The notes under the pieces are model-generated. The model did not search any database. It was not told the DNA's origin and saw nothing but the letters and a program-made list of their open reading frames with translations. Shown here in pieces: positions 5,361 to 37,530 of a stretch of 37,530 bases of DNA. Position numbers and translations under genes: made by a program. The first letter of the stretch is position 1; each line of letters starts with the position of its first letter. This stretch comes from a virus: IMG/VR virus record IMGVR_UViG_3300044631_001340, positions 1 through 37,530 of that record. One strand, 5' to 3'.

Positions 5361-5438
5361 TCTCCCTGCCGCGGCCCTGCTCACGCACCGAGCACAACTA
5401 GCCCGAGAGCTGCCCCGGTGGTGCGAGGCAGCAACCTT

Positions 5439-5636
5439 ATGACCATCGACACGACAAGTCCCCCAGGCTCGTGGCAGCGCGAGCTGGACTTCAAGTTGAC
5501 CCGGCCTGACCAGCTGCGCGCTGAGATCTACGACCAACGGCGCCGCATCGCCGAGTACCTGCGCGAGATCGAGCAGCTGCGTGCGCGCGTGCGCGAGCTT
5601 GAGGCGCGTGAGTCTGCCTGGGTGAGGGAACCGTGA
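5439..5636 (+). CDS. Small coiled-coil protein C
   Basis: A 65-residue protein beginning MTIDTTSPPGSWQRELDFKL. Residues about 25-60 form a predicted coiled coil (EIYDQRRRIAEYLREIEQLR, then ARVRELEARE). The ATG at 5439 has a GAGG ten bases upstream; an in-frame ATG at 5418 is possible but has no better site. Its stop overlaps the GTG of the next gene. Confidence 0.6.
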   Translation: MTIDTTSPPGSWQRELDFKLTRPDQLRAEIYDQRRRIAEYLREIEQLRARVRELEARESAWVREP

Positions 5637-6187
5637 ACCTTCAGCTTGCGCCCCAAGGTCTGCGCCCTGTCGCCGAACTCGGCGCGGATCGCCCCCACGG
5701 GCATCGGCTGCGGTATCTCGCCGGATGCCGGTGCTTCCATTGCCGCCGCGCGAATTCCGACTACGAGCGCGAGCGGAAGGCGGCACGAGCCGCCGGAGAC
5801 TGGAACGGCATCGTCGATGCCGCCGCCGCGCGCAAGCACATTCGCGCGCTGTCCAGGCAAGGCGTCGGCCGGCGAATGGTGGCAGCGGCGTCTGACGTGG
5901 CGCTGTCCGTGATCGCCGACGTGCGCTCGGGCAAGAAGCGGCAGATCCGCGCCCGCACCGAGCGGCGGATCTTGGCGGTGACGCCGGCCTGCCGTGGCGA
6001 CGCTGCTTTGGTACCGGCGGGGAGGACTTGGACGCTTATCGCAGCACTGCTCGAGGAAGGATTCACGAAGGCGCGGATCGCCCAGGAGCTCGGCGCGAAG
6101 ATGCCGGCGCTGCAGATCCGGCGCGACAAGGTCACAGCGCGAACTGCCGCGAAGGTCGAGGCGCTTTGGCGCAAGTACCAGACATGA
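5633..6187 (+). CDS. Zinc-finger-like and HTH DNA-binding protein
   Basis: A 184-residue basic protein. The N-terminus carries a HGHRLRYLAGCRCFHC motif (H22, H24, C32, C34, C37), a pattern seen in many small phage HTH proteins and able to bind zinc. Residues about 68-112 look like a helix-turn-helix (KHIRALSRQGVGRRMVAAAS and on), and a second possible one lies at about 132-160 (WTLIAALLEEGFTKARIAQE). It is the best candidate for a regulator in the early operon, for example of the late genes, for which no standard promoter is visible. That role is inference. The start is GTG at 5633 after GAGGG, overlapping the previous stop. Confidence 0.65.
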   Translation: MNLQLAPQGLRPVAELGADRPHGHRLRYLAGCRCFHCRRANSDYERERKAARAAGDWNGIVDAAAARKHIRALSRQGVGRRMVAAASDVALSVIADVRSGKKRQIRARTERRILAVTPACRGDAALVPAGRTWTLIAALLEEGFTKARIAQELGAKMPALQIRRDKVTARTAAKVEALWRKYQT

Positions 6188-10718: not shown

Positions 10719-11207
10719 GTGCCTTCATTTCAATTCGACGCCCAGAACCACGTTGCGCCGCCGGCGCCGGAGCGCAGCCCGTTGCCGCGCGGCTTCTACC
10801 AGGTCATGGTGATCGGGTCCGATCTCAAGCCCACGCAGGCCGGCACCGGCCAGTACGTCGAGCTCGTGCTGCAGGTGGTCGACGGCGACCACAGCGGCCG
10901 GCGCGTCTGGGATCGGCTCAACGTCAGCAACCCGAACAAGACCGCCGAGGACATCGCCAAGCGCCAGCTGCAGCAGCTGTGCCTGGCGGCCGGCGTCACG
11001 AACCTGACCGACACTGAACAGCTGCACGACATCCCCGTGATGGCGGAAATCGACATCGACCGGAAAGACCCGACACGCAATCGCGTGATGGGCTACGCCG
11101 GCATCGCCGGTGCGTCTGGGAAACCTTCTGCCCAGGCCGCGCGGCCCGGTGCCGCCGCATCTCCCCCTGCGGCGAAGCCGGCTGCGCGGCCCTGGGAGCG
11201 CCGATAA
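10719..11207 (+). CDS. DUF669-type protein, likely ssDNA-binding partner
   Basis: A 162-residue protein with a beta-rich core (LPRGFYQVMVIGSDLKPTQA, then YVELVLQVVDGDHSGRRVWD) and a Pro/Ala-rich tail ending in WERR. The core matches the DUF669 type, which in phages accompanies Sak4-like ATPases and is thought to bind single-stranded DNA. The start is GTG at 10719, eight bases after GAGG; its last base is shared with the next start. Confidence 0.8.
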   Translation: MPSFQFDAQNHVAPPAPERSPLPRGFYQVMVIGSDLKPTQAGTGQYVELVLQVVDGDHSGRRVWDRLNVSNPNKTAEDIAKRQLQQLCLAAGVTNLTDTEQLHDIPVMAEIDIDRKDPTRNRVMGYAGIAGASGKPSAQAARPGAAASPPAAKPAARPWERR

Positions 11208-12316
11208 TGGCGCAAGTCCCTGCTTCGCAGCACACAACCGGGGAGGCCATTGTCAAATGGCGTGCGCGAGAGAAGCAGGAACACCGGGAACACCTCGGGG
11301 CGTCGTTGATCGGCCACGCGTGCGATCGGCACATCTGGCTGTCTTTCCGCTGGGCGATGACGCCCAGTTGGGACGGCCGGATGCGGCGGCTCTTCGACCG
11401 CGGCAAGCGCGAGGAGGCGGTCGTCGCCGAGGAGCTGCGAGGCATCGGCGTCGATCTGCACACGCACGACGGCGACAAGCAGATCGAGTGCCGTGACGAG
11501 TCGGGGCACTTCGGCGGCAGCGTCGACGGTATCGGCCGTGGCTTCCCCGAGGCGCCCAAGACCTGGGCGATCCTCGAGGTGAAGACGCACAGCGCGAAGA
11601 GCTATACAGACCTCAAGAAGGTCGGCGTCGCCGAGAGCAAGCCGCAGCACTACGCGCAGATGCAGTCCTACATGGGACTGCTGAAGCTCGAGCGCGCGAT
11701 GTACCTGGCGGTGAACAAAGACAACGACGAGCTCTACACCGAGTGGGTGCACTTCGACGAGGACGCGTTCAAGGCGATGCAGGAGCGTGCCCGGCGCATC
11801 ATTGACTCGAAGACCCCACCGACGAAGCTCTCCGAAGATCCGGCGCACTGGCAGTGCAAGGGGTGCCCGTTCTTCTCAGTCTGTCACGAGCAGAAGGTGG
11901 CCGAGGTGAGCTGCCGAACATGCTGCCACGCGACCCCCGTTGCGGCCGGCGCATGGCATTGCGACGTTCACGGCACCGCACGCAACAAGGGTGAGCAGCG
12001 CAGCGCCTGTGAGCAGCACCTGCTCATCCCCGACCTCGTGCCCTTCGGCGAGGCGGTGGATGGCGGTGTCGCGCACATCGAGTACCGGCACCGTGAGACT
12101 GGCAAGACGTTCATCAACGGCCCCGGCGGCTACTCGAGCAAGGAGCTCTCCGCGTCGGCGGCCGGGACTGTCACCGAGCCGATCGTCGAGGCGATGCGGG
12201 CGACGTTTACCGCCAAGGTCGTCGCGAGTAAACCGCGGCGCGGCAAGCGCGACCTGTCGAACCTGCCGCCGGCCGAGGCCTACGACCACGACTTCAACGA
12301 CCCGATCCCGTTTTGA
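11207..12316 (+). CDS. Cas4-like PD-(D/E)XK nuclease with predicted Fe-S cluster
   Basis: A 369-residue protein. The nuclease core shows D107 in GGSVDGIG, E124-x-K126 in AILEVKTHS and a Q-x-x-Y-type motif (PQHYAQMQSY, 146-155). C39 together with C217-x2-C220-x5-C226 (CKGCPFFSVC) matches the four-cysteine iron-sulfur pattern of Cas4/AddB-type nucleases. It probably makes 3' single strands for the annealing ATPase upstream. An additional cysteine/histidine-rich segment (236-268, CRTCCHATPV then HCDVH) is not part of the usual core and may bind a second metal. Confidence 0.83.
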   Translation: MAQVPASQHTTGEAIVKWRAREKQEHREHLGASLIGHACDRHIWLSFRWAMTPSWDGRMRRLFDRGKREEAVVAEELRGIGVDLHTHDGDKQIECRDESGHFGGSVDGIGRGFPEAPKTWAILEVKTHSAKSYTDLKKVGVAESKPQHYAQMQSYMGLLKLERAMYLAVNKDNDELYTEWVHFDEDAFKAMQERARRIIDSKTPPTKLSEDPAHWQCKGCPFFSVCHEQKVAEVSCRTCCHATPVAAGAWHCDVHGTARNKGEQRSACEQHLLIPDLVPFGEAVDGGVAHIEYRHRETGKTFINGPGGYSSKELSASAAGTVTEPIVEAMRATFTAKVVASKPRRGKRDLSNLPPAEAYDHDFNDPIPF

Positions 12317-12936: not shown

Positions 12937-13249
12937 AGTGTTGCGAGAATCTCAACAGCCAGTGTTGACAACACTGGTTGACGCGGCGGGGCAGCTCGGT
13001 GTTAGCGTGAAGACGCTCCGCCGGCTGGTCGACCGGGGCGAGGTGCCGGCCTACAGGTTCGGCACCGCGATCCGAGTCAACGTCGCGGAGATTCTCGAAG
13101 CAACCAAACAGGAGCCCCGCAAACTATGTCCATCTTCAAACGAGGCAAGACGTTCTACATCGATATCGCGCTCCCCGGCGGGCGGCGATTCAAGCAGTCT
13201 GCTCAGACTGCTGATCGCAAAGCAGCGCAGGAGCTGCACGACCAATTGA
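12929..13249 (+). CDS. Excisionase-like HTH (MerR/HTH_17 type) protein
   Basis: A 106-residue frame whose residues about 14-62 are a HTH_17/excisionase-like winged helix (VDAAGQLGVSVKTLRRLVDR, then GEVPAYRFGTAIRVNV). It lies directly before the integrase, the usual place of a recombination directionality factor. The last 41 residues overlap the integrase N-terminus in another frame and look compositionally like a shadow, so the functional domain probably ends near 13125 although no earlier stop exists. A GTG at 12962 would give a shorter product. The operator dyad (12940) and a perfect palindrome (12959) lie inside its 5' end. Confidence 0.6.
   Translation: MPEVLRESQQPVLTTLVDAAGQLGVSVKTLRRLVDRGEVPAYRFGTAIRVNVAEILEATKQEPRKLCPSSNEARRSTSISRSPAGGDSSSLLRLLIAKQRRSCTTN
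12940..12956. promoter_or_regulatory. Operator-like dyad, site 4 (xis/int entry)
   Basis: GTTGCGAGAATCTCAAC is the fourth GTTG-N9-CAAC dyad. It lies within the first codons of the excisionase-like gene, close to possible promoter elements for the integrase. Confidence 0.65.
12959..12977. promoter_or_regulatory. Perfect 19-bp palindrome beside operator site 4
   Basis: CCAGTGTTGACAACACTGG is a perfect dyad (9-base arms, one central base) two bases after operator site 4. It contains TTGACA, and a second TTGACG follows at 12978-12983 with a weak -10 at about 13001. It could be a binding site for another regulator, such as the excisionase-like or Cro-like protein, controlling integrase. Confidence 0.55.
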
Positions 13250-14124
13250 AGGCGCAGCTCTGGCGCCAGGCCAAGCTCGGCGAGAAGCAACCGCGCTCGC
13301 TCAACGAGGCGGCCGAGCGCTGGCTTGCCGAGCACAAGACCGACGGCGCCATCCGCGACTACACGCACCACCTCGCGTTCTGGTGCGCGCGCGCCGAGGG
13401 CATGGCCCTCACCGACATCACCCGCGCCTGGGCGGCCGAGCAGATCGAGGGGCTCATCACGCGCAAGGGCACGCCGGCGAGCAACGGCACCCGCAACAAC
13501 TACGTCATCACCCTGCGCAGCGTGCTCTCGACTGCGTGCAAGGAATGGGAGTGGATCGACCAGGTGCCGACCTTCCGCACCTACGGTGACAAGCGCGAGG
13601 CGAGCAAGATGCTGATCGCGACCCCCGCCCAGGCGAAGGCGCTGCTCGAGGTGCTGCCGCCCCAGCTGCGCGCGGCGGTCGGGTTTGCGTTCATGACCGG
13701 CCTGCGCAAGTCGAACGTGTTCGGGTTGACCTGGGATCGCGTAGATCTCGCCCGCGGCGTCTGCTGGGTGCAGCCGATCGACACGAAGGCCGGGAATCTC
13801 ATCGTCTGCCCGATCAACAGCGCCGCCCGAGCGCTCCTCGAGCAGCAGCCGCGGGTGGCGGGCGAGAGCCGGGTGTTCCCGGTCGAGCCGCCCTGCTTCC
13901 ACCAGTGGCGCCGGTACACGAAGCGCGCCGGGTTACCCGAGGGGTTCCGGTTCCACGATATCAGGCACACCTTCGCGAGCTGGGCGGCGATGGACGGGGT
14001 CGATCGCAAGACGCTGCAGGACATGGGCGGCTGGAAAACGCCGGCGATGATCGACAACTACGTCCACCTGCCGGTCGATCACCTGGTCAATGCGGCGGAG
14101 CGCTTGGCTACGCGCCTGCACTGA
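13126..14124 (+). CDS. int: Tyrosine-recombinase integrase
   Basis: A 332-residue intact integrase. The N-terminal beta-rich arm-binding segment (FKRGKTFYIDIALPGGRRFK) is followed by a core-binding helical domain (about 57-155) and the catalytic domain. All active-site residues are visible: R194 (TGLRKSN), K221 (DTKAG), H277-x-x-R280 (FHDIRHTF), W303 (GGW) and nucleophile Y312 (DNYVHL). It catalyses recombination between the phage attP next to it and a host tRNA-Met gene. ATG at 13126 follows AGGAG at eleven bases. Expression is likely controlled through the dyads at 12940-12977. Confidence 0.94.
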   Translation: MSIFKRGKTFYIDIALPGGRRFKQSAQTADRKAAQELHDQLKAQLWRQAKLGEKQPRSLNEAAERWLAEHKTDGAIRDYTHHLAFWCARAEGMALTDITRAWAAEQIEGLITRKGTPASNGTRNNYVITLRSVLSTACKEWEWIDQVPTFRTYGDKREASKMLIATPAQAKALLEVLPPQLRAAVGFAFMTGLRKSNVFGLTWDRVDLARGVCWVQPIDTKAGNLIVCPINSAARALLEQQPRVAGESRVFPVEPPCFHQWRRYTKRAGLPEGFRFHDIRHTFASWAAMDGVDRKTLQDMGGWKTPAMIDNYVHLPVDHLVNAAERLATRLH

Positions 14125-17114: not shown

Positions 17115-18077
17115 TCAAAAGTAAAAGCGCAGGACCGCGAAGCCGTTGCCGCCGGCGCCGGGATTGCTTCCGGTTGCACCGCCGCCGCCGCCGCCGCCGT
17201 TGCCACCAGCGCCGCCGTTGCTACCACTTCCGGCAGCGCCAGCGGCGAGCAAGCCACCGCCACCGCCACCGCTGCTGGTGCCGCTACCGCCGCCGGAAAA
17301 GCCTGTAAACCCCCAAATCGATACGGAGGCCAGAGACCCGCCAACGTTTGGGGTTGTGCCGCTACCGCCGCCGCCGCCTAAAGATCCTGCCGCTGCGGCG
17401 CCGTTACCGGATGCGCCACCGCCGCCGCCATACCCCGGCGTAGTAGTTGTGCCTGTTGATCCGGCGCCGCCAGATCCGCCGCCGCCACCGCCGAATGATC
17501 CGTGACTGCCGCTCGATCCGTTGTTGCCCGCTCCGCCAGCGCCAGCGCCCGCAACGCCGCCGGTGCTGCCGCCGATCCGGCCTTCCTGCGGATACGCCGA
17601 CCACAGCACGCGCCCGATCGGCGGAGCGCCGCCCATGCCGCCAGAGCCATTGTTGGCAGAGGCGCCGCCACCGCCGCCACCGCCTGCGCGGCCGGTCTGG
17701 GCTTGGAAATTGGTTCCGCCGCCACCACCGCCACCACCGCCGACTTCGGCATAGCGTGTGCCGCCAGATGTAATAGAAGTTGGCGAGCCGTTGGCGCCGG
17801 GGTCACCGGCCGCGCCGCCCGCACCGATCACAACTTGCAGCGGCTGGCCTGTAACCGGAATTTCGATGACCGCAGCGCCGCCGAAGCCGCCGCCGCCGCC
17901 GTAAGCTCCACCGCCCGAGCCACCGCCGCCGCCACCGCCCACGAGCAGCGCCTCGATGCGCTTGACGCCGGCCGGCACGGGTACGGTGCGCGACGTGGAG
18001 ATGACGCCGGACTGGACGAAGCGCGAGACGGAATCGCTCACGGTGCCGGGGATTCCGGCGAAGGTACCGGGGTTCAT
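17115..18077 (-). CDS. Glycine-rich adhesin-like tail protein
   Basis: A 320-residue protein. After a short beta segment (RTVPVPAGVKRIEALLVGGG) come many glycine runs, up to nine in a row, separated by short polar loops, and a C-terminal GNGFAVLRFYF. This is the glycine-rich domain found in phage receptor-binding proteins, where glycine-rich strands can pack as polyglycine-II helices with exposed loops that contact the receptor (as in T-even-type gp38 adhesins). Fold is inference. The start overlaps the upstream stop as ATGA. The DNA consists of long CCG/GCC triplet runs, which are prone to slippage. Confidence 0.72.
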   Translation of the reverse strand: MNPGTFAGIPGTVSDSVSRFVQSGVISTSRTVPVPAGVKRIEALLVGGGGGGGSGGGAYGGGGGFGGAAVIEIPVTGQPLQVVIGAGGAAGDPGANGSPTSITSGGTRYAEVGGGGGGGGGTNFQAQTGRAGGGGGGGASANNGSGGMGGAPPIGRVLWSAYPQEGRIGGSTGGVAGAGAGGAGNNGSSGSHGSFGGGGGGSGGAGSTGTTTTPGYGGGGGASGNGAAAAGSLGGGGGSGTTPNVGGSLASVSIWGFTGFSGGGSGTSSGGGGGGLLAAGAAGSGSNGGAGGNGGGGGGGATGSNPGAGGNGFAVLRFYF

Positions 18078-18460
18078 CAGAAGTCCCCTGCGCGGGTCAC
18101 GAGCACGTTGAAGGTTTCGCTGTTGTTGGTCGACGCGCGGAGCGACCAGCCGTTCGGCAGCACGATCGCCTGGTTGAGCAGCGTCGTGCTCCACGCCTCA
18201 ACCGTCGTCGACGGCGTGACTGCGGTCACGAGGTTTTCGGCGAGCAGACGCGCGTTGGTCCCGTCGTGGACGAAAAGCCGCACGACGCCGGCAGTCGTGG
18301 TGCCGGTGGCCTGAATCTTGATGTCGTCGATCCGCGAGCCCGAGCTGCCCGCCGTGAAGATCGTGGCAAGCGTGCCGGTTCCGTCGCGGTTCGTGTTGGC
18401 GACGGAGACCTGACCGACCGCAGCGCGGGGCGTGGATGCGTACTGTGCTTGAACTGCCAT
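18077..18460 (-). CDS. Small beta-rich virion-associated protein
   Basis: A 127-residue protein (MAVQAQYASTPRAAVGQVSV...) rich in Thr, Ser and Val with alternating beta segments (RIDDIKIQATGTTTAGVVRL, FNVLVTRAGDF). It lies between the tail fibre and the glycine-rich adhesin and is probably structural. GAGGAG lies six bases before the ATG at 18460. The stop overlaps the adhesin start. Confidence 0.65.
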   Translation of the reverse strand: MAVQAQYASTPRAAVGQVSVANTNRDGTGTLATIFTAGSSGSRIDDIKIQATGTTTAGVVRLFVHDGTNARLLAENLVTAVTPSTTVEAWSTTLLNQAIVLPNGWSLRASTNNSETFNVLVTRAGDF

Positions 18461-18470
18461 GATGAACTCC

Positions 18471-19580
18471 TCAAACAATTCCGAATGCTTGGACGATGAA
18501 ATCTGGCGCGCCGCCGCTCGATTGCGTCAGCTCAGCCCAGCCGTAGGTCGCGTCGACGTATTGCAGCTGCGTGGCGCTTTGCGACAGCGTCATGTTCGCT
18601 GCAATGCCCTTGATGTTTCGGCCGTTGCGGTCGATCACGTTGTCGGTGCGGCCGTTCGCCGACGTGATCCAGACGACATCACCCACAGCAGGTGATGCAG
18701 GCAGCGTGACGGTCGTGGACGCGGCGTTCGTGAGGGCGTAGTTGAAGCCGCTCGAGGCCAGCTGCGACGTGCCCGTGACGACCAGCATGGTCGGCAGTCC
18801 CGTCGAACTTGCCGCGGCGAGAGTGATGCTGCCGGGACCGTTACTGATCGACACGCCCGCCCCGGCGGTCAGCGTCGAGAGCGCGTAGCCGCTGCCGTTG
18901 CCGATCAGCACCTGGCCGTTCGCTGGCACGGAGTTGAGCCCGGTGCCGCCGTTCGCCGGCGCGACTGTCCCGGTGACGTTCGCGGCGTTGCCGTTGATGT
19001 TGCCGGTGATCTTGCTGCCGTTCAGCGTCACCAACCAGGCGGGGTCGCTGTACGAGCCCGTGGTGTAGACGCCGTTCGTGACGGTGCCGGCGTTGCCCGT
19101 GACGTCGCCCGTGACGTTGCCGACGACGCCGGCCGTTGCCGTCAGCACGCCGGTGACGCCTAGGGTGCCCCCAACGGTCGCGTTCCCGCTCAGCGTCGCA
19201 GTGCCCACCACGCCGATCGTCCCGCCGATCGAGACGTTGCCGTCAGCGGTGAACGTCCGCGCCGAGGGGATGAACACCCCGGCCGTCGTGAATCGCATGA
19301 TGTTTGTCGCCAGCACCGCGGCCCACATTTCGCCGCTGCCGGCACGGTAGAAGCCGCTCGAGGTTTCGTTCAGCCAGGCAACGCCCGGCGCGCCCGCGTT
19401 GCCATCGGCAAGCCGGAACGGCGCGGTCATGCCGCCCTGGCCGCTGCGCGACAGCGAATCGCTCAGCGCATCGGCGACGTCCTCCATCGTGTCATTGGCC
19501 CAGTCGGCCTCGATGATGGTGCCGGCCGACACCGGGTTCCCGGTCGGCAGCGTGTAGGTACCTGCTCCGTTTCTTGGCAT
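18471..19580 (-). CDS. Tail fibre protein
   Basis: A 369-residue fibrous protein. The N-terminus (GTYTLPTGNPVSAGTIIEAD, then WANDTMEDVADALSDSLSRS) is a common tail-attachment segment. The middle contains repeated Gly/Asn/Thr/Val motifs (SIGGTIGVVGTATLSGNATV, GNVTGDVTGNAGTVT, NGGTGLNSVPANGQVLIGNG) typical of beta-helical fibre shafts. The C-terminus (NVIDRNGRNIKGIAANMTLS, then YVDATYGWAEL) is a frequent fibre end. Good ribosome-binding site (GGAGAG) before the ATG at 19580. It most likely binds the host surface together with the glycine-rich protein. Confidence 0.85.
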   Translation of the reverse strand: MPRNGAGTYTLPTGNPVSAGTIIEADWANDTMEDVADALSDSLSRSGQGGMTAPFRLADGNAGAPGVAWLNETSSGFYRAGSGEMWAAVLATNIMRFTTAGVFIPSARTFTADGNVSIGGTIGVVGTATLSGNATVGGTLGVTGVLTATAGVVGNVTGDVTGNAGTVTNGVYTTGSYSDPAWLVTLNGSKITGNINGNAANVTGTVAPANGGTGLNSVPANGQVLIGNGSGYALSTLTAGAGVSISNGPGSITLAAASSTGLPTMLVVTGTSQLASSGFNYALTNAASTTVTLPASPAVGDVVWITSANGRTDNVIDRNGRNIKGIAANMTLSQSATQLQYVDATYGWAELTQSSGGAPDFIVQAFGIV

Positions 19581-19589
19581 CTCTCTCTC

Positions 19590-21542
19590 CTACTGCGACG
19601 CGGCCGCAGACGACCCGCGCAGAATCCTCAACAACGCATCCTGTTCCGCCGTCAGCGGCTGCCCCGAGCGCTCGAGCTGCTCGAGGATTCGACGCAGCTC
19701 CTGCGGGTTCTGCAGCGCATTGGCGAGCGCCTGATCTCGCTGCGTGTTCGCAAACGCGCGCAGCGCGTCGATGCCGCCACGCGCGACGATCGAGCCCGGC
19801 GTGCCGGCGACGCCGCCGATCACGTCGGCTGCCTGCCCGGCTGCCGCTGCGGCAATCGTGTCGCTTGCAGTGTTGCTGCCGCCACCTGCCGTCGCGGTTC
19901 TCGCAACACGCTGGGTGATGTTTTGCCGGCGCAAGGCCTCGAGGACGGTGTTCAGCCGCTTTTGCGCAGCATTCGAGAGCTGCACGTTGCCGGCGCGATC
20001 GGCGCCGCGATTGATCGCACGGCCGAGCCCAGCCTCGGTGATCTTCGGAACATCGCCCGCCGCGTCCGCAGACACGCCGAGCACGCGGCCGGTGTTGCGG
20101 TCGTAGACCGAGTCGCGAACACGCCCCGCGGCCTTGCTCTGATCGACCAGGCGAGATCCGCTCGCGTAGTCGTCGACAACCTGCTGCCACTTGCCGTCCG
20201 TCGCCCTGTTCAGGATGTAGTCGAGCTGGTCCATCACCTGCAGCCGCATCGGCGAGCTGCGCGGCGCGGCCGTGAACGCGTTCGGGTTCATCGGGCTGAA
20301 CTTCGCGCTGAGGTTGGCGCGGATCTGCTGCAAGTGCGCCGGCGTGTAGGCCGAGCCCGACGCCGACACCCGGTCGATGTCGTTGGCGATCGCTTGCATC
20401 ATCGACCGCACCTGCGGGTTCGACGCCTCTGGAAGCCGCATGGCTTCGTCGAGGTCGCCGCGGAACGCCGCGATGTCCGACCCGAACTTGCTCATGTTGC
20501 TCGCCTCATCGGCGCGCGCGAAGTTGCGGTCCCAGCGATTCGATCGAGCGGTCTTCCGCGGCCCGAGCATGTCCGCCTCGCGGGTCGCGCGGCCGAACTC
20601 GCCGGCCACCGCCCTCGCCTGGTTCTGGTCGAAGTCGTACCAGTTGCCGGCGTTGAGCGTGCGACTGCCGCGCTCCAGGCGCGCGAGGTCGGCGCTGTCG
20701 AGGCGGGCGGCGGTCGTGAGCGGGATACGCCCCTGCGGCCCGAGCCCACGCAGCTGCGCAAGGGTGCGCGAGAGCACGTCCTGCCGGGTCGCCTGGTCGG
20801 CGCCCTCGCCCGCCATCTCACGCACGACTTGCTCCGCAGCGCGCTCCCCGCCGCCGCCGGCCGTCCCCATGCGTCGAACCTGGTTCACGCCGAAGCCGGC
20901 CGCCGGGAGCGCTGCGCCGAACGCGGCCCCCTCGAGGGCGTTATTGAAAGCGCTCTCGCCCTCGACAGTCGGCCGCAGGGCGCCGTACAGGCCGCCAGAG
21001 AGCGCCGCATCGCCGACTAGGCCTGCCGTCCCCAGCTTCGCCGTCGTCGTCGCAGCGGGCGCCATAGCGCGTCCTGCGCGCAGTGCCTGATAGGCACGCG
21101 GGAGAGCAGTACCAGCGCGCATCGCGGTATTGGCGAACGCGCCGGCGGGGACCGCCAGCGTCGGCACGACGTTGCCCGCTACCTGCAGGGCGCCGCCGCC
21201 CGTGGTGTTCTCGGCGAGCGTTTCGGCCACGGCGCGCTCGTCGGCGGCACGGCGCTTGAGCTCTGCGCCCCGCTTGTCGTTGCCGAACAGGTCGTTCCAG
21301 CGCTGCTGGGCGCCCGTGACGAGCTCGGCGGTGCCGGCCCCGTAATTCTCGAGTGCCCGGCGCAGCCAGGACGATTCCTTCGCCCGGCCGCCCGCCATGC
21401 TGCGCATCGTGTTGCGGCGCCACTCGTCGGTCAGCTTCGGCGCGTCGTGCTGCTGCAGCATCCTGCGCAGCTCGTCCTGGGTGATGCCGTCAGGCACCCC
21501 CTCGACGATGGTGCCGTCAGGCATGACGACGTCAACGGGCAT
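19590..21542 (-). CDS. Internal virion/ejection protein
   Basis: A 650-residue, largely helical protein. The N-terminus (VVMPDGTIVEGVPDGITQDE, LRRMLQQHD) resembles a short module found in phage internal virion proteins. Hydrophobic Ala/Gly-rich stretches at about 120-150 and 170-215 are followed by a long charged helical region. Its place after other internal-virion genes and before the fibres suggests an ejection protein that helps DNA cross the cell envelope. No lytic transglycosylase motif was recognised. The ATG at 21542 overlaps the upstream gene by 11 bases. Confidence 0.65.
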   Translation of the reverse strand: MPVDVVMPDGTIVEGVPDGITQDELRRMLQQHDAPKLTDEWRRNTMRSMAGGRAKESSWLRRALENYGAGTAELVTGAQQRWNDLFGNDKRGAELKRRAADERAVAETLAENTTGGGALQVAGNVVPTLAVPAGAFANTAMRAGTALPRAYQALRAGRAMAPAATTTAKLGTAGLVGDAALSGGLYGALRPTVEGESAFNNALEGAAFGAALPAAGFGVNQVRRMGTAGGGGERAAEQVVREMAGEGADQATRQDVLSRTLAQLRGLGPQGRIPLTTAARLDSADLARLERGSRTLNAGNWYDFDQNQARAVAGEFGRATREADMLGPRKTARSNRWDRNFARADEASNMSKFGSDIAAFRGDLDEAMRLPEASNPQVRSMMQAIANDIDRVSASGSAYTPAHLQQIRANLSAKFSPMNPNAFTAAPRSSPMRLQVMDQLDYILNRATDGKWQQVVDDYASGSRLVDQSKAAGRVRDSVYDRNTGRVLGVSADAAGDVPKITEAGLGRAINRGADRAGNVQLSNAAQKRLNTVLEALRRQNITQRVARTATAGGGSNTASDTIAAAAAGQAADVIGGVAGTPGSIVARGGIDALRAFANTQRDQALANALQNPQELRRILEQLERSGQPLTAEQDALLRILRGSSAAASQ

Positions 21543-22575
21543 TGGTGAGATCCTCGAATCGAACGCGGCGGTTGCCGCCGGCCGGCGTGCCGCCGCGATA
21601 AACCGGGTTCACGATGACGCCGGCGGGGTCGAGGCCACGGGCCCGTGCGAGCTCCGTGTACTGACCGGCGGTCGACATCAGCTTGGCTTCTGCCGCACGC
21701 TGATAGAGCTGCGCCAGCCCGTTGATCTGCTGGATCGCGGCATCGTTCAACGGCTCGCCGCGCAGGATGTTGTTGATCAGGTTCTGCGCGCGCCCCTCCA
21801 ACCCCTGCGCCTTGATCACGCGGTCGAATTCGCCCTCGCGGACCACCGAGCCGGGGTCGAGGAACTTGTTCAGCAGGATCACGAGCGACTGCTGCGTGAT
21901 CGCATCCGGCCTCGAGCCGGGCGGTGTCGCCGAGACGATCTCGGTGATCTTGCGCGTCGCGCCAAGCTCAGACTGCAGATCCTTCGTGGCGTTGTCGAAG
22001 TCGTTGCGCAGCTTGTCCTCGGCGCGCCAGGTGCGCGCGTCGTCGGCGCTGTTGCTGCCGCGCGCGCCGGCCAGTGCCATGCGCAGGACCGAGTTGTCTT
22101 CGCGCGCCTGGCGCTTGTCGTCGAGGCCCATCTCGAACTGCCCGAGCTGCATCAGTCGAGCTGCTTCGCGCTCGCGGCTCGCAGACGGGTCTTTCAGCAC
22201 CTGACCGTCGGGGGTAATCGTCGAACTGCCAACCTTCATCGGCTCACGCGCGGCCATCGCGCGCTTCAGGTACTGCCCCTGCACGCCCTCAAAGCGCGGG
22301 CCGGCGTACTGCGCGGCGAGCGCATTCAGCATTGACGCACCGCCCTCGTCCGCCCTCGAGCGAGCGTAGGCCTGAGCCTGGGAGAAATCGTCCTCCTGCC
22401 CGTACAGGTCAAGCGCTTTGCGGATGTTGTCCTCGCCAGGCTGCACCGTGTTCGTGATCGTGCCGCCAGCGCTTTTCTGTCGCGCGCGCGGCAAGAGCGA
22501 TCGCCGCTTGCGCTCGATCTCTTCCGGCGTCTCAACGATCGCGCCGGCCGCCAGCATTTCTTCGTAGAAGCCCAT
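21532..22575 (-). CDS. Internal virion protein
   Basis: A 347-residue helical protein (MGFYEEMLAAGAIVETPEEI...). The part QSLVILLNKFLDPGSVVREG (about residues 229-248), followed by EFDRVIKAQG, is a pattern seen in phage structural and ejection proteins. It belongs to the block 25261-19590 and probably takes part in DNA ejection. GGAGG lies four bases before the ATG at 22575. Confidence 0.65.
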   Translation of the reverse strand: MGFYEEMLAAGAIVETPEEIERKRRSLLPRARQKSAGGTITNTVQPGEDNIRKALDLYGQEDDFSQAQAYARSRADEGGASMLNALAAQYAGPRFEGVQGQYLKRAMAAREPMKVGSSTITPDGQVLKDPSASREREAARLMQLGQFEMGLDDKRQAREDNSVLRMALAGARGSNSADDARTWRAEDKLRNDFDNATKDLQSELGATRKITEIVSATPPGSRPDAITQQSLVILLNKFLDPGSVVREGEFDRVIKAQGLEGRAQNLINNILRGEPLNDAAIQQINGLAQLYQRAAEAKLMSTAGQYTELARARGLDPAGVIVNPVYRGGTPAGGNRRVRFEDLTNAR

Positions 22576-22586
22576 GATCCCTCCGG

Positions 22587-22943
22587 TCAGTACATGGTCT
22601 CTTCGTCGTCGTAGGGGCGCTTGCCGCCCTGCATCGGAGTCACCGGCCGCGTACGCGAAGCACGCAGCATCTCGAGAGCCGTCTTCTGCCGCGCGTTGAA
22701 GTCCTTCATGCCGGCGTCGACCTTGCCCTGCCCCTTGCGGGCCATGTAGGCCTGACCGAGCTGAGCCGCGCCCTGGGCGAGCGACGGCCCGACATAGACA
22801 CGCCCCGCCATCTGACCCTGCATCGGCTGCATCGACTGCTGCCGCAGCGCATCGATCATTGCCTGCTTGCGCGCAAGCTCCTCTTCCTCTGGGCGCATCG
22901 CGCCCATCTGCAAGAGGTAGTCGAACATTTGCGATTCATCCAT
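22587..22943 (-). CDS. Small Gln/Met-rich virion protein
   Basis: A 118-residue protein with an acidic N-terminal helix (MDESQMFDYLLQMGAMRPEE), a Met/Gln-rich middle (RQQSMQPMQGQMAGRVYVGP) and a basic C-terminus. Its place directly after the 769-residue repeat protein, with an 8-base gap and a GAGGT site, suggests a partner or adaptor in the ejection apparatus. No family was recognised. Confidence 0.6.
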   Translation of the reverse strand: MDESQMFDYLLQMGAMRPEEEELARKQAMIDALRQQSMQPMQGQMAGRVYVGPSLAQGAAQLGQAYMARKGQGKVDAGMKDFNARQKTALEMLRASRTRPVTPMQGGKRPYDDEETMY

Positions 22944-22951
22944 ACATCACC

Positions 22952-25261
22952 TCAGAGCGCAGCATAGTTGACGGTCAGGTACCCGCTGGCGTGCCGCTTG
23001 ACGAGCTCGGGGCGCACCGCCGCAAGCTCCTGCGCTATCACACCGCGCTGACGGTAGCCCGCCATGTCGAAGTCGTAGATGCCGACGCCCGTGGCGTGCG
23101 TGCCGACGCGCTTGATCCGGCGCTTGAGGCGGCGGTCGGAGAACGCGAACGGGTTGCCGAGCGCCGCGCTGCCCAGATTGAACAGCCCGCCCATCGTGTT
23201 GCCGAACGACGCGTTGCGCGCGTTCTGAGCGTCGAGCGCTGCCTGGTACTGCATGTTGGCAGCGTTGAGCAGCTGCGGCGTCTCTGCGACCCCAGCGCGC
23301 TGGAACTGCGGCATCTGCGGCATTCCGACCTGCTGACCCGTGATCAGTGCGTTCATTTCGTTCAGCGGCTGCGAGCGTGCCATCTGCTGCTCTGCGATCG
23401 CCTGCTGACGCAGCCGGTTCTGCTGGTCGGCAAACTGCTGCTGCATGTTCCACTGCTGGCTCAGGGCGGCGTTGTCGGCCTGCTGCCTGGCGATGTCGAG
23501 CGCCGACGCCTGCCCCAGCGACTGATTGCGGAACTGCTGCGCCGCCAAGTCCTGTTGGAATGCCTGCCCCGCGCTGCGGTTGAACAGATCCTGCATCGAC
23601 ATGTTCTGGTTGAACAGCTGGTTCTGAGCCTGATTACCAAACTGGCTGGCCGCGAGGTTCTGATTGAACGCCTGATTGGCCGACTGGTTGGCAAACTGGC
23701 CCTGCTGCAATCCCTGCTGGAACCGCTGGTTCGCAGCCTCGTTGGCAAATCGCCCCGCGTCGAGCGACTGATTGAAAGCCTGCCCGACGGCGCGGTTGGC
23801 AAACTCGTTGCCAGCGAGGTTCTGCTGGAAGTCTTGCCCGCGAGCGGCATTCGCTGCCTGTCGCGCCCCCATGTCCTGCTGGAATGCTTGCCCGACGGCG
23901 CGGTTGGCGAACTCGTTGCCGGCAAGGTTCTGCTGGAACTCCTGTCCGCGGGCGGCATTTGCTGCCTGTCGCGTCGTCGTGTCCTGGTCGAAAATCTGCC
24001 GCTGCGCCTGATTGCCGAACTGCCCGGCCTGCAGGTTTTGACCGAACTGCTGGCCGACAGCTTGGTTGGCAGCTTGACGAGCGCCCAAGTCTTGGCTGAA
24101 AGCCTGCTGCGTCGCCTGGTTGGCGAACTGCCCGCGAGCGAGGTTCTGCTGGAATGCCTGGTTCGCGGCCGCGTTGGCGAAGTTGCCCGAGCCGACATCC
24201 TCGTTGAATGCCTGCTGCCGCGAGCCCATCTGCATCCCGTACAGCCGCTGAGCTTCGTTGCCGGCGATGTCGAGCGCGTTGTAGCGCTCGGAGGACTGCC
24301 GGCCGGCGAGGTCGTCCAGCGCGCGCTTGTACGCCTCGCTGCCGCGCTCGAACCCCTGATTGGCGAGCTGCGTCTCGAGGTTGGCCTGCTGCATCTGATG
24401 GACGGGCATCATGCGACCGACAAGATCGGTCGCGACAGAGTCGCGGAACGACGAGTCGAACCCAGGCAACGCGGGGTTGTCGCCCGTGTTCAGCCCGCGC
24501 TGCACCGCCTCGCCCTGCATCCCGCGCACGAGGTTGTTGCCCATCGAACGGAAGTTCGCGTTGACCTGCATCGGGTCGACGCGCGTCTGGACGTTTTGCG
24601 TGTTTGCTCTGAAGCCCGCATCGACGGGGGACGCCTGCGTGTTGAATCGCAGCGCGTTGTTCATCGACTGGAAGTTCGTGTCGACCGGCGAGCCTTGAGT
24701 GTTTGTCCGCAGCGCGCTGATCATCGGGTTGACGCCGCCCTGCAGCGCGGTCTGGTCGATCCCGCCCTGGATGCCCCCGGCGCCAGAGTCGACCGACATC
24801 TGCGGGCCGCTGAAGTTGAACCCGTTCGACAGTTGCTGCTGCGCGACGTCAGTGCTCAGGCCGGCAGAGTAGTCGGCGATGCCAGACATCACGCGGCCGG
24901 GATCGCCGGCAGAAGTCAACGCCGGCAGGTTCTCCCAGTCGAACGGCTTGGAATAGGCATCGTTGACACGACCCATAAACCCCTGCGCGAGGTTGCTGCG
25001 GTCCTGCTGCATCTTGATCTGCGAGTTGAGCGCATCCTGCAGCTGCGGCGTCAGCGTCGTGTTCTGCGTCCACTTCGTCACCTGCTGACCCGTCGCCGGG
25101 TCGGTGCCGACTTCCGTCGACCAGCTTTCGCTGCCGAACGGCGTGTTGATCGTCGGGCGGTTGGCGAAGTTCTGAATGTTCAGGTTTTCTTTCGACGCCT
25201 GCGCCTGCGCCATTGCAGCGCCAGTGTAGTCCGGCGGCGGCGGTGCCTTGCCCTTGCTCAT
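22952..25261 (-). CDS. Virion protein with 18-residue repeats and C-terminal S74 chaperone
   Basis: A 769-residue protein. Residues 1-345 are mixed, with a short duplicated motif ALR-x-NTQ(G/A)SPVD at 183 and 203. Residues 351-584 hold 13 repeats of exactly 18 residues, each with Phe at the second place (352, 370, 388 and so on to 568), pattern AFxQ(N/D)LxxxxFxNxAxxQ. After a Gln/Met-rich linker the C-terminus has an S74 intramolecular-chaperone-like domain from S708-D-R-R-L-K713 to the end (RGVIAQELAAVRPELV, LTVNYAAL). In known S74 domains the Ser/Lys pair performs self-cleavage before Ser; here that would release a 62-residue tail. It is likely an internal or ejection protein. The start overlaps the GNAT gene stop (ATGA). 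Confidence 0.85.
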   Translation of the reverse strand: MSKGKAPPPPDYTGAAMAQAQASKENLNIQNFANRPTINTPFGSESWSTEVGTDPATGQQVTKWTQNTTLTPQLQDALNSQIKMQQDRSNLAQGFMGRVNDAYSKPFDWENLPALTSAGDPGRVMSGIADYSAGLSTDVAQQQLSNGFNFSGPQMSVDSGAGGIQGGIDQTALQGGVNPMISALRTNTQGSPVDTNFQSMNNALRFNTQASPVDAGFRANTQNVQTRVDPMQVNANFRSMGNNLVRGMQGEAVQRGLNTGDNPALPGFDSSFRDSVATDLVGRMMPVHQMQQANLETQLANQGFERGSEAYKRALDDLAGRQSSERYNALDIAGNEAQRLYGMQMGSRQQAFNEDVGSGNFANAAANQAFQQNLARGQFANQATQQAFSQDLGARQAANQAVGQQFGQNLQAGQFGNQAQRQIFDQDTTTRQAANAARGQEFQQNLAGNEFANRAVGQAFQQDMGARQAANAARGQDFQQNLAGNEFANRAVGQAFNQSLDAGRFANEAANQRFQQGLQQGQFANQSANQAFNQNLAASQFGNQAQNQLFNQNMSMQDLFNRSAGQAFQQDLAAQQFRNQSLGQASALDIARQQADNAALSQQWNMQQQFADQQNRLRQQAIAEQQMARSQPLNEMNALITGQQVGMPQMPQFQRAGVAETPQLLNAANMQYQAALDAQNARNASFGNTMGGLFNLGSAALGNPFAFSDRRLKRRIKRVGTHATGVGIYDFDMAGYRQRGVIAQELAAVRPELVKRHASGYLTVNYAAL
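23510..24211 (-). repeat. 54-bp tandem repeats (13 copies) in the virion gene
   Basis: This stretch encodes residues 351-584 of the 769-residue protein as 13 units of 18 codons in strict register. Two double-units (residues 441-476 and 477-494) are nearly identical, consistent with a recent duplication, while the others have diverged. Confidence 0.88.
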
Positions 25262-25668
25262 TGCAACGTCTCCTTCAGGAACCGGCAGTCTTCGCGCCGC
25301 AGTTCAAGCAGCACACAGTCGACGGTCTCCGCAATTTCCTTGAATCCGATCTTCTTGTTGAACCGAATCGCTCGATCGAGGTCGCGCGGCGTCAGTCCGT
25401 AGATGGCGCGCACGCCGACGGTGTCGAACGGGTACGACATCACCGCGCGCAGGAACTGCTTGCTCAGCGAGTGCGCAGAATCGAGCACGACGTGAATGAA
25501 GCACGCCGCAGGCGTCCAACCGTTGAACGCCACCGCGGCGGCAATGGTGCCGTCCTCGCGGAGCGCGGCAATCGTGCGCAGGTCGCTCGACCACGGGATC
25601 TGGGTCTGCTTCGACATCCACTCCCAGATCACTGGCGGCTCACCTGCGATGTCCGTCACGAGTTGCAC
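25258..25668 (-). CDS. GNAT-like acetyltransferase fold protein (gp13-like)
   Basis: A 136-residue protein resembling the GNAT-like proteins found in the internal-virion region of many podoviruses. RTIAALREDGTIAAAVAFNG, CFIHVVLDSAHSLSKQFLRA and LDRAIRFNKKIGFKEIAETV follow the GNAT strand-helix order; the usual acetyl-CoA loop (RxxGxG/A) is not clear, so activity is uncertain. The start is taken as GTG at 25668, seven bases after GAGGT, overlapping the upstream end closely; a longer frame upstream reads as a shadow. Its stop overlaps the next gene (ATGA). Confidence 0.7.
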   Translation of the reverse strand: MQLVTDIAGEPPVIWEWMSKQTQIPWSSDLRTIAALREDGTIAAAVAFNGWTPAACFIHVVLDSAHSLSKQFLRAVMSYPFDTVGVRAIYGLTPRDLDRAIRFNKKIGFKEIAETVDCVLLELRREDCRFLKETLQ

Positions 25669-25670
25669 CG

Positions 25671-26246
25671 TCAGAACCTCATCAGGTCGTAGTCGGGCAT
25701 GTACTGCAGCATCTCGAGCATCGCCGGGTCGATCATGGCCTGCGGCGGCTGCACCGGCGCGGACTCGGGTTGCGACTCCTCCTGCTGCGGCACTTGCTGC
25801 TGCATCATCTCGGACATCCACCAATCCGGCATGATCGGCTGAGAGTCAGGCTCGACCTGATTCATTTCCTGCACGCTTTGCTGCTGCACATCTGGCGTCC
25901 GAAAATCGTTCGGGTTCTGGTTCCAGTTTTGGTTCCAGTTCCAGTTCTGGTTCCAGTTGTTCCACCAGTCGTCAGGCGGCATCGGCGGCGTGTCATCCGG
26001 CGGCGTGACAGGCGGTTCCTCGGGCGGCGTCACCGGCGGAGTTACCGGCGGCGTGACGGGAGGCGGCGTCACCGGAGTTTCCTCGGGCGGCGGCGTGACG
26101 GGAATCGGCGTCGCCGACGTTGCCGTGCGCATCCACGGGAAGTTCAAAGCCTGCGGAGCGCTTGGCATCGTCACGCTCCCGCGCGTGTTTGCGCGCAGCG
26201 CAGCGATCAGCGAGTTGCCCGGCGGCTGCTGCATCATCGGTTCCAT
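25671..26246 (-). CDS. Pro/Thr- and Trp/Asn-rich low-complexity virion protein
   Basis: A 191-residue protein. Residues about 48-85 are repeated VTPP/PVTPP(E) units, followed by a Trp/Asn/Gln segment (DWWNNWNQNWNWNQNWNQN) and a Gln-rich acidic C-terminus. The N-terminus has IAALRANTRGS, similar to ALRTNTQGS in the neighbouring 769-residue protein. ATG at 26246 shares a base with the upstream stop (TGATG); a GTG at 26249 is the longer option. Probably structural and disordered. No family was recognised. Confidence 0.65.
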   Translation of the reverse strand: MEPMMQQPPGNSLIAALRANTRGSVTMPSAPQALNFPWMRTATSATPIPVTPPPEETPVTPPPVTPPVTPPVTPPEEPPVTPPDDTPPMPPDDWWNNWNQNWNWNQNWNQNPNDFRTPDVQQQSVQEMNQVEPDSQPIMPDWWMSEMMQQQVPQQEESQPESAPVQPPQAMIDPAMLEMLQYMPDYDLMRF

Positions 26247-27835
26247 CACATCACCCCGCCCATTTCACTCAAAACGTGGAACGACGCGAACGTCGTGGTG
26301 CCGCCCAAGCCACGGACGCGCATCCGCAGCGACCCGTAATAACCGAGCCCGATCACGCCGAGCCACGTCTCGAACGTGTTGCTCGAGTAGCCCCAGCGCG
26401 CAAGGTTCCAGATCCCCTCGTCCCATTCGTCGCGCGCTTCGGCCGTGAACGACGGCGCGCCGGCAACCCCGCCGAAGCTGTACTGCGTGTTGAGCCGCAC
26501 CTTCAGCGACGGCGGCTGACGCGCGATGAACACCGGCCGAACCATCGTGAACCGCTTGAGCTGGCCCGGCGTGCCGAAGGCGTTGAAGCAGGTCTGCACC
26601 TCGCCATCCACCGCGAAGCCGCCGCTGCCATCGACCGCGACGCCGTCCAGCTCGCCCAAAAACCCCTTGGCAACGCGGCGGTCATCCGTCGCGAAGTACA
26701 GCTGCCCGTTGAGCATCGCGGTCGCGACCATCGGAATGCCCGTCAGCGTGCACCAGGCGCCCGTGTTGATGTTCATCGCGAACTGCTGGTAGGTGCCATC
26801 GAGCAGCGGGAGCTTGATGACGAGCACGTCGCTGTTGGGGACGAGGTAAACGTCCCAGGCGACCGCGGTGCGCAGCTCGCTCACGATCGGCGCCAGCACC
26901 GTCTGGATCTTCTGGGCGGGGCCGGGCTGGATCTCGCTGAACTGCCCGTTGACGAGTCGAGACATCGGCACGATGCCGAGCTCGGACAGGATCATCACGT
27001 CGCCGCCGAAGTTAGTGAAGAACCGGCCGTTGAGCGGCACCGGACCGACGTACCAGACGCCGCGCAGCGCGAACGTCGAGGCGTTCGAGGGGTCGGTGCC
27101 CTGCCAGACGCTGACGTCGCCCTGACTGCCGACCGCGACCAGGTAGTCGTCGATGCCGGTGCCGGCGTCGAGCGTCCAGTTGATCACGGCGCGCATCGAG
27201 CCACCGTTGCGCATCGTCGCTCCCATCGGGAACTCGGACGCGGTGCCGGTGATTGCGTTGACCGTCGTCAGGTAGTACACGCTCGAGCTGTTCTGCACCG
27301 TGAAGAACACGCGGTTCTTCCAGACCGCCACCGAGGTCGGATTGGCGGGCAGGCCGGTGACCGTCTGCTGTGTCCAGCTCGTGCCGTTGTACGTCCAGTA
27401 ACCCGCGCCGGGGCTCACGGCCAGCAGGAAGTTTCCTGACGTCGTGGAGAACTGCGCGGTGCTCCACAGGTTCGCGGTGCTTCCCGTCGTCGACTGCGAC
27501 ACCGCCGGCGTGGCGGTCGTCACGTCGTAAATGTTGCCGGCCGCGGCGGCGAAGACCTTGCTGCTTGCCGGGTTCGGCGCGTTGTAGCTGAAGACTGAGC
27601 CGATATCGTTCGCGAGCGCGCTGCTGGTGTGGTATTGCCAGCCCTTGCGCAGCTCGGCGCCCGTCTGTTTCGGGATGAAGTTGCGCATCACCAGCGCGTC
27701 CGTCACAGCCATGTTGCTGATCGGATCTCGATAGTTGAGCCCGCCCACCGGCGCGGGCGAGACGATCAGCTGCGCGCTCTGCGCGGCTGCGGACAGTCGC
27801 GGCGACTTGAACTGCTTGATCGGGATCAGCGGCAT
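26246..27835 (-). CDS. Tail tubular/nozzle protein
   Basis: A 529-residue protein, probably the tail tube (nozzle, gp12-like or P22 gp10-like). It begins RLSAAAQSAQLIVSPAPVGG, LNYRDPISNMAVTDALVMRN, a typical start of this family, and continues with repeated beta blades (GTSWTQQTVTGLPANPTSVA, VWKNRVFF). It directly follows the adaptor gene with a TGATG overlap. A normal length for such tail proteins; role inferred from order and pattern. Confidence 0.82.
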   Translation of the reverse strand: MPLIPIKQFKSPRLSAAAQSAQLIVSPAPVGGLNYRDPISNMAVTDALVMRNFIPKQTGAELRKGWQYHTSSALANDIGSVFSYNAPNPASSKVFAAAAGNIYDVTTATPAVSQSTTGSTANLWSTAQFSTTSGNFLLAVSPGAGYWTYNGTSWTQQTVTGLPANPTSVAVWKNRVFFTVQNSSSVYYLTTVNAITGTASEFPMGATMRNGGSMRAVINWTLDAGTGIDDYLVAVGSQGDVSVWQGTDPSNASTFALRGVWYVGPVPLNGRFFTNFGGDVMILSELGIVPMSRLVNGQFSEIQPGPAQKIQTVLAPIVSELRTAVAWDVYLVPNSDVLVIKLPLLDGTYQQFAMNINTGAWCTLTGIPMVATAMLNGQLYFATDDRRVAKGFLGELDGVAVDGSGGFAVDGEVQTCFNAFGTPGQLKRFTMVRPVFIARQPPSLKVRLNTQYSFGGVAGAPSFTAEARDEWDEGIWNLARWGYSSNTFETWLGVIGLGYYGSLRMRVRGLGGTTTFASFHVLSEMGGVM

Positions 27836-36206: not shown

Positions 36207-37530
36207 TCAGTTCATCGTTGGTGGAGAAAAGCGCCCAGGCGGCCCAATCTGAACCGGCGCAGCAGAGGACGCTTCGTCGTCGTCGATCTCGCGTACCTCG
36301 ACGATGTCGCCCGACTGCGGGTCGCGGATCGGCACGCGCTTGCGCTTTCGATTTACCGCGCCCATCACGGCCATCATCTGGGCATCCGACTCGGCCTTGT
36401 TCTGCGCGACCATCTCCTTGATCGACTCGAGCTCCATGACCTGCGAAGTGCCAGGCAGAGACATGAGCAGGTTGGAGATGTGCTTGTAGTTCTCTTCGAT
36501 CGAGTCGAACCGCTGCTGCATCTCGACCTTCTGCAGCTCGACCGAGGCCTTGAGAGCCGCGAGCTTCTCGTCGCTCTGCACCTGCAACGCGGCAACCTTC
36601 TCGTCGCTCTGCGCCTCGAGCATCGCGATCCGCTCGTTCGACTTGATCTTCTCCGCCTCGAGCATGATCTGCGGGTCGGGCTGCGGCTGCGGCGGGTTCT
36701 GCAGCTGCTGGTTCATCGCCGTGATCGCCTGGTCGAGCACGCCCTCGATCTCGGTCGACACGCGGAACTTCGCGACCGCCCACTGCATCAACCGAAGCAG
36801 GAACGGACCTGCGCCCGGCGTCTGCTGCGCCACCGGCGCAACCTGCGAGATGAACGCGCCGAGCCCCTGCATGAATTGCACCGCTGCGTCGCGCTCGGCG
36901 GCCCAGTCCATCGCCGCCATCGAATCGGCCTCGACCGAGATGCGGTACTCGCTGAGCTCTTCGTCCTTGATCAGCGAAATCGCCGACTGGGCATAGGGGG
37001 CATCCGGCGTGCGCAGGATGTTCGATCGCGTGGCGATCGTGTCGGGCTGGAAGTGCTTGGCGATGATTTCCGCCTTGATCCGCAGCGCTTGCGTGAGCCA
37101 CTCGGCGATATAGAACTGCATCAGCTGCACGCGCGTCGAGCCGAACTGCGCCTTGATCTGCTGCGCCGTCGCGGTTTCCGACGCCTTCGACGAGCCGCGC
37201 ATCACGTCCGAGATGCCGAGCACCTCGTAGATCTGCATCGTCTTGTCCTGACGGTACTGGCGCAGGCGCTCGATGGCGTTGACGATCGACTCGATCGGCA
37301 CCCAGTCGATCTTGCCCTTGATGCCGCCCGACTCCGCGAACATCGCCCAGTTGTCGACCGGGATCAGCTGGTTCTCGCTCGCCTGCTGGAACATGCGCTG
37401 GATGCCGTCGGCAGCCTTGTCGTAGACGCCGATCACCTTCGCCGCACGCGTGAGCCAGGTGATGCGGGTGTTGATCTCGTCGAGTTCGTCGAACTGGTCC
37501 TGCGCGAAGACGTAGTCCGCGCGCGGCATG
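36207..37530 (-). CDS. Portal protein, C-terminal part (gene continues from 1306)
   Basis: This is the 3' part of the portal gene, 441 codons including stop in this window and continuous in frame with positions 407-1306. The ring-core region (DYVFAQDQFDELDEINTRI, YDKAADGIQRMFQQASENQL) is followed by a long C-terminal coiled coil from about 275 to 365 of this part, with an 11-residue repeat QSDEK(V/L)AAL(Q/K), probably the helical barrel seen in some podovirus portals. The apparent ATG at 37529 is internal to the real gene. It is followed by the TVTTV-repeat structural gene with a 7-base gap. Confidence 0.88.
   Translation of the reverse strand, partial: MPRADYVFAQDQFDELDEINTRITWLTRAAKVIGVYDKAADGIQRMFQQASENQLIPVDNWAMFAESGGIKGKIDWVPIESIVNAIERLRQYRQDKTMQIYEVLGISDVMRGSSKASETATAQQIKAQFGSTRVQLMQFYIAEWLTQALRIKAEIIAKHFQPDTIATRSNILRTPDAPYAQSAISLIKDEELSEYRISVEADSMAAMDWAAERDAAVQFMQGLGAFISQVAPVAQQTPGAGPFLLRLMQWAVAKFRVSTEIEGVLDQAITAMNQQLQNPPQPQPDPQIMLEAEKIKSNERIAMLEAQSDEKVAALQVQSDEKLAALKASVELQKVEMQQRFDSIEENYKHISNLLMSLPGTSQVMELESIKEMVAQNKAESDAQMMAVMGAVNRKRKRVPIRDPQSGDIVEVREIDDDEASSAAPVQIGPPGRFSPPTMN
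37124..37530. repeat. Terminal direct repeat (right copy)
   Basis: Second copy of bases 1-407, with two synonymous differences. It supports circular closure of the map. Confidence 0.95.

Follow-up and report, generated by a model that had tools for sequence, protein, structure and literature searches.

The PHROG 6121 family and the S74 domain are both already known. The PHROG 6121 members of isolated phages, such as Myxococcus phage Mx8 p54, Sulfitobacter phiGT1_17, and Rhizobium RHph_I3_18 gene 14, are like the protein described herein in profile family, gene order, and a minimal S74 domain at the C-terminus. However, these proteins are 321-342 aa in length, and contain neither the 18-residue rod nor the long N-terminal region of 20-residue repeats. 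Other S74 proteins, including endosialidases, the GP12 neck appendage, the T5 L-shaped fibre, and MyRF, have in common with it a match to the whole profile model, and its dyad spacing of 5 is that of S911/K916 in endoNF and S587/K592 in MyRF (PMC8326128). Unlike these proteins, its S74 domain has no trimerising helix and is carried on a helical rod in an internal-virion block, not on a triple beta-helix fibre. The ejection proteins P22 gp7 and T7 gp14 occupy the same gene slot, which follows gp14/IVPA (the GNAT gene) and precedes the large internal virion proteins; however, P22 gp7 is 229 aa, lacks both rod and S74, and has no detectable homology to the protein. In the T7 tunnel, gp16 is a "molecular tape", an extended chain lying on helices that stabilises the gp15 tube (PMC8954989). 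The gp15:gp16 periplasmic tunnel is a parallel in working principle to the tape proposed here, although the T7 tape is a different protein, whereas the present tape would be supplied by the N-terminal part of the rod protein itself, with its length matched in register steps. The coiled-coil arms of SMC proteins show preferred stepwise lengths between a fixed head and hinge (PMC5344682). SMC proteins pair two helices in steps of ~100 residues, whereas the present protein would pair a helix with an extended chain at 18:10, in single 18-residue steps. Neither the rod nor the length coupling reported below is described in the literature searched.

The window, which is the whole stretch of DNA analysed, is a virus record of 37,530 bases. 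The gene of the rod protein is located at 22952..25261, as given in the earlier note, and lies on the minus strand. Its open reading frame and translation give a virion structural protein of 769 aa that matches phrog_6121 (E 1.9e-50). An 847-aa ORF antisense to it (22859-25402, plus strand) was considered and rejected as probably a shadow of GC-rich codon use, not a gene.

Phenylalanine is found at every 18th residue from 352 to 568 (352, 370, 388, 406, 424, 442, 460, 478, 496, 514, 532, 550, and 568; 13/13), as had been noticed before. When the same residues were shuffled, 0/20,000 shuffles reached this phase. The repeats had been described as 13 exact units. The period is indeed exact, but the units are not identical: their mean pairwise identity is 47%, and only one pair is the same (442-459 and 478-495). 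Among the 13 units, the conserved columns are F1 (13), Q3 (12), N/D4 (11), L5 (9), F10 (9), N12 (13), A14 (10), and Q17 (13). A 108-nt array, equal to two repeat units, was detected independently by TRF. The rod (residues 352-585, at 23507..24208 on the minus strand) is rich in Ala, Gln, and Asn and has no Gly-Asp turn motifs. Its bulky hydrophobics follow a dominant period of 4.5 (F1, L5, F10, and A14). The repeats are phase-perfect, but this period puts the hydrophobics on two opposite faces of an alpha-helix and not on a single face, as had been proposed.

Relatives were collected by protein-based scans (loci L002-L127). They share the N-terminal block A, the middle block B (around residues 274-355), and the C block. 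They vary in the rod, which separates B from C, and in the stretch that links A to B. With one set of anchors defined by regular expressions, the rod length between the fixed anchors was 2 modulo 18 in 54/54 proteins. With profile (HMM) anchors, which are independent of the first set, the rod was constant modulo 18 in 59/60 relatives, and the two sets agree. In the extended set, all 90 distinct main-group relatives were constant modulo 18 over rod gaps of 22 to 292 residues; the sole exception in that set is L087, a distant homologue on a bacterial contig. The cultured-phage homologues have no rod, and in the rodless relatives (phiGT1_17, Rhizobium, and Microcystis) the N-region is collapsed as well.

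The length of the N-region follows that of the rod. For each 18 residues of rod, the N-region gains 10 residues (r 0.9997 in 60 distinct relatives), and the set of 90 relatives gave the same r of 0.9997 with a residual sd of 0.9 residue. Rod gaps of 22, 40, 58, 76, 94, and 112 are accompanied by N gaps of 40-42, 50-53, 62-64, 71, 81-84, and 91, and rod gaps of 148, 184, 220, 256, and 292 by N gaps of 111-113, 132-133, 150-153, 171, and 191, respectively. The slope of N gap to rod gap, calculated from the 21 distinct length combinations, is 0.5545 (bootstrap 95% 0.548-0.562), an interval that contains 10/18 = 0.5556. A matching N change within 2 residues was seen in 19/19 path-disjoint sister pairs differing in rod length. 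On a quick tree built from the fixed blocks (the anchors) only, with 21 weakly supported forks, at least 29 changes in rod length are counted, an approximate figure. The pair L054 and L066 illustrates one such step: the two proteins share 97% identity, and what separates them is an 11-residue indel in one region and an 18-residue indel in the other, and their genes show heavy synonymous but little amino-acid divergence, with the synonymous differences spread along the gene. Self-identity of the N-region is strongest at lags 20 and 40, and for the rods of long members the peaks fall at 36 and 18; one 20-residue tape unit apparently corresponds to each double rod unit. This strict 10:18 covariation over 19 independent sister comparisons indicates a structural constraint that is read from sequence alone.

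AlphaFold2 (AF2) models were made of the monomers of the window protein and of one short relative. The overall confidence was low (pTM 0.22), and the rod pLDDT was about 40-76. In both models the rod is helical, the N-region has hardly any structure, a helical hairpin turns at 302-308, and the S74 core is well predicted. The conserved N-terminal block (residues 1-113; 24923..25261, minus strand), proposed as one fixed end or base, has many invariant columns and is modelled as helix, beta hairpin, and helix (H12-33, E38-70, and H72-104; pLDDT roughly 46-69). The region that changes length with the rod covers residues ~103-273 of the window protein. Within it, residues 124-263 (24473..24892, minus strand), the proposed extended tape, form seven 20-residue rows with the consensus [LIV]QRGVQxTP[VL]NTxFDPMTGG. 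The conserved block B (residues 270-351; 24209..24454, minus strand) is modelled as a helical hairpin (H270-301 and H309 onward, with pLDDT 71-80 over residues 281-330), and is the proposed tip between the arms. The conserved C block (residues 600-707; 23141..23464, minus strand) has invariant columns and the motif NEMNALLxGQQVxMPQMP ... GNPFAF, and is taken as the end of the predicted mature chain. Nearly the whole rod is helical in the model; however, the helix is broken in the monomer, though only at low confidence. A helix is predicted for the rod with low to moderate confidence, but a lone helix, as the earlier note had it, does not account for an N-region matched to it in length at 10:18 in all 90 main-group relatives. 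The monomer model leaves the N-region off the rod, with no docking placed. A Foldseek search of the full model against the PDB gave no match with E below 0.001, and the matches displayed are noise. The profile search against the PDB gave nothing significant; the best E, 0.2, was for the S74 part on a long-tail-fibre subunit.

The C-terminal 62 residues (708-769; 22955..23140, minus strand) are a minimal Peptidase_S74 domain, and the suspicion of such a domain held up. PF13884 matches residues 708-755 over model positions 1-58 of 58, with 24.4 bits against a curated cut-off of 22, and the S708-D-R-R-L-K713 motif provides the Ser-Lys dyad with the predicted cut at F707|S708. The AF2 pLDDT is 83-89 over residues 711-769. 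The domain ends at its last strand, and the C-terminal trimerising coiled-coil helix, as in MyRF, is absent. Counted from Ser to the C-terminus, it has 62-65 residues in every member other than those of Mx8 and Rhizobium. Ser and Lys(+5) are invariant in all 86 distinct closed proteins that carry the motif, and in 83/86 the residue before Ser is Phe. Since the motif search itself demanded S and K, the informative point is that motif-less members lack the whole domain: it is gone in all but the interrupted L075, and none keeps the domain with a broken dyad. L075 (4513-5796) is a homologue broken by a stop or frameshift, with the S74 part in a separate open frame at 5332-5796. Six distinct S74-less relatives (L018, L023, L027, L031, L061, and L076) stop cleanly before the next gene. 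Their ends, such as ...GNPFAFKS* compared with ...GNPFAF|SDRRLK, are close to the predicted cut. These ends fit a removable assembly domain, with the chain up to about F707 as the likely product. At least four events of S74 gain or loss are needed by the tree, and this repeated loss is comparative evidence on a removable folding domain. No S74 in trans was found for the S74-less relatives in the loci examined or in the whole 35.7 kb L031 record; in the S74-less record L078, S74 is present in another ORF of 1102 aa. In L042 (10074-12692) and L045 (10830-13448), a second S74 occurs in another ORF, which lies ~3.4 kb downstream from that of the rod protein and probably encodes a tail fibre. A helical rod with a removable folding domain in the ejection block had been called unusual. 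An S74 domain is, however, the norm in this gene slot, as in PHROG 6121, Mx8 p54, phiGT1_17, and four Rhizobium phages, and some members have lost it.

The gene order was compared with that of short-tailed phages. On the minus strand of the window, the order is portal, major head, tail (phrog_6013), the nozzle-position phrog_5107, GNAT, rod protein, small protein, two possible internal virion proteins, and fibres. Directly upstream of the rod protein is the GNAT acyltransferase-like gene (25258..25824, minus strand; phrog_4470 over residues 66-186, true start uncertain), which is the nearest upstream gene in 89/89 loci. Directly downstream is the small gene of 118 aa (22587..22943, minus strand), the nearest downstream gene in 85/86 loci. 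It is followed by two possible internal virion proteins in the Mx8 order, one syntenic with Mx8 p56 (21532..22575, minus strand; phrog_13634) and one with Mx8 p57 (19590..21542, minus strand; no family match), and by a separate tail-fibre gene (18471-19580, minus strand). The same order is found in Mx8 (p51-p57), Sulfitobacter phiGT1, Rhizobium phage RHph_I3_18, EBPR podovirus 2, and Stenotrophomonas BUCT555, and rests partly on position, since several genes in those phages are annotated only as hypothetical. The gene at the GNAT position (IVPA) has been equated with P22 gene 14, with the internal virion proteins to its right (PMC10386132). The P22 record runs gp10, gp26 needle, gp14, gp7, gp20, and gp16, so that with GNAT as the gp14 equivalent the rod protein falls in the slot of the first ejection protein, gp7. 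Homology to P22 gp7 itself was rejected: single-sequence and profile comparisons were all negative, with an hhalign probability below 1%. In MW202675 (L140:3176-6733), the PHROG 6121 segment and S74 are fused to an SLT transglycosylase in a protein of 1185 aa. Its gene bears the name internal virion protein D, and the fusion links the family to the ejection module. The S74 of that protein sits in the first third, and self-cleavage would yield two virion proteins. Weak matches to phrog_4287, "DNA ejection protein", were also obtained. The rod protein thus adjoins ejection-type genes, in agreement with the ejection-block placement made earlier, and assigning it to the internal virion/ejection module is the best reading and probably correct.

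A fixed-length, periplasm-spanning tube, as suggested in the earlier note, is not supported by the relatives. Rod gaps range from 22 to 292 in related phages of similar genome size, and when the lengths of neighbouring genes were tested against rod length, none tracked it (|r| below 0.29). The wide range disfavours a strictly periplasm-spanning tube. It also counts against our own explanation, since a range of more than 10-fold is odd for a conduit across a periplasm of fairly fixed width.

Herein, an architecture is proposed for the protein as an IVPB-slot virion protein of a P22/Mx8-like short-tailed phage, belonging to the internal/ejection module. The mature chain would be a rod of adjustable length with two fixed ends, a base made of residues 1-113 and 600-707 and a helical-hairpin tip made of residues 270-351, and two arms of equal length would connect them. 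One arm would be an alpha-helix in which every 18-residue unit spans 27 A, and the other the extended N-terminal chain, with about 10 residues per unit. With a rod helix of 1.5 A per residue, the 10:18 coupling gives the N-region a rise of 2.7 A per residue, which is compatible with an extended chain. Because both arms would join the same two fixed ends, they should have to be equally long. The extended chain may dock lengthwise on the rod, either that of the same subunit or that of a neighbour, and the two hydrophobic rod faces may serve helix-helix packing and tape docking. Length would evolve by paired steps, +18 for the rod with +10 for the tape. The minimal S74 domain would aid assembly and then cut itself off between F707 and S708. 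We infer that the arms lie side by side, that the protein oligomerises and is cleaved, that it is present in the virion, and that it has a role in the ejection conduit. A self-contained molecular ruler, in which the helical rod and the extended chain of one protein are matched 18:10 at 27 A each, is considered probable. The whole explanation, a matched two-arm adjustable rod in the ejection module with a removable S74, is somewhat favoured as the best one.

The main rival to placement in the ejection module is an external appendage, namely a tail needle or fibre that is trimeric and matured through S74, and whose rod length determines how far it extends over the cell surface. An S74 domain is typically found on trimeric spikes and fibres, and variable length is common in fibres. 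The PHROG matches include tail-fibre families, via S74, and the named BFVD matches are mostly annotated only as intramolecular chaperone proteins. However, the rod gene follows GNAT in every locus counted above, whereas the P22 needle gene (gp26) lies between the nozzle and gene 14. The window has a tail-fibre gene of its own downstream, the family is fused to an SLT transglycosylase in MW202675, and an Ala/Gln/Asn-rich helical rod is not a beta-structured fibre. An external location is therefore rather unlikely, and the internal module is retained. A different doubt concerns the S74 step only and is compatible with the proposed rod: S74 may be a fossil, a sequence match that does not cleave and has no trimerising C-terminal helix. 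The short span from Ser to the end in close relatives and the missing domain in several relatives favour this, as does MyRF, which needs a C-terminal triple coiled-coil helix for trimerisation and hence for cleavage (PMC8326128). Against it are the retained Ser, Lys(+5), and preceding Phe, with the reservation that the search pattern asks for S and K, and the S74-less ends close to the predicted cut; the rod could also supply trimerisation. A fossil domain is thus possible, though an active, removable S74 is preferred.

Two further alternatives concern the repeat itself. The 18-residue unit might be one rung of a beta-solenoid, composed of two 9-residue half-turns, and not five turns of an alpha-helix. 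RTX-type beta-rolls have two-sided rungs of 18 residues, and the dominant hydrophobic period is 4.5/9, not 3.6. This fold is nevertheless improbable, since AF2 gives helix through nearly all of the rod, the Ala/Gln-rich composition has no Gly-Asp turn motifs, and 10 extended residues alongside cannot match a rung of 4.8 A. The repeat number might also be neutral noise from tandem duplication, with no structural meaning. The recent DNA-level duplication of two units speaks for this alternative, but it is very improbable indeed. Neutral noise would not hold the rod constant modulo 18 except in one very distant relative, nor change a separate region to match in each of the independent pairs, and the length variants L054 and L066 differ heavily at synonymous sites and little in amino acids. 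The matched helix and extended chain therefore remain the preferred reading of the repeat.

If the ruler is true, the ejection conduit or needle would lengthen or shorten only by paired insertions at two distant sites in one gene. The coupling predicts an architecture, and would make it possible to approach by genetics what determines how long an internal virion or ejection component of a short-tailed phage is. It would also offer a natural design rule for rods of chosen length.

Several other features of the window were observed. At 25671-26249 on the minus strand, a protein of 192 aa with a high content of Pro, Trp, and Asn (PVTPPVTPPEEPP... NWNQNWNWNQNWNQN) is encoded. Its gene is flanked by the nozzle-position gene and GNAT, where P22 has its needle gene; full-length homologues occur in only 3 loci. 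Beside the tail-fibre gene, at 17115-18194 on the minus strand, is a Gly-rich protein with GGGG runs, possibly a fibre-tip adhesin. A Cas4-domain exonuclease is encoded at 11207-12316. The integrase (phrog_1) at 13126-14124 on the plus strand suggests a temperate phage. The portal gene (36207-37529, minus strand) is cut by the record end and a terminase large subunit-like gene lies at 1306-2643 on the minus strand, and the record could therefore represent a permuted genome that is nearly complete.
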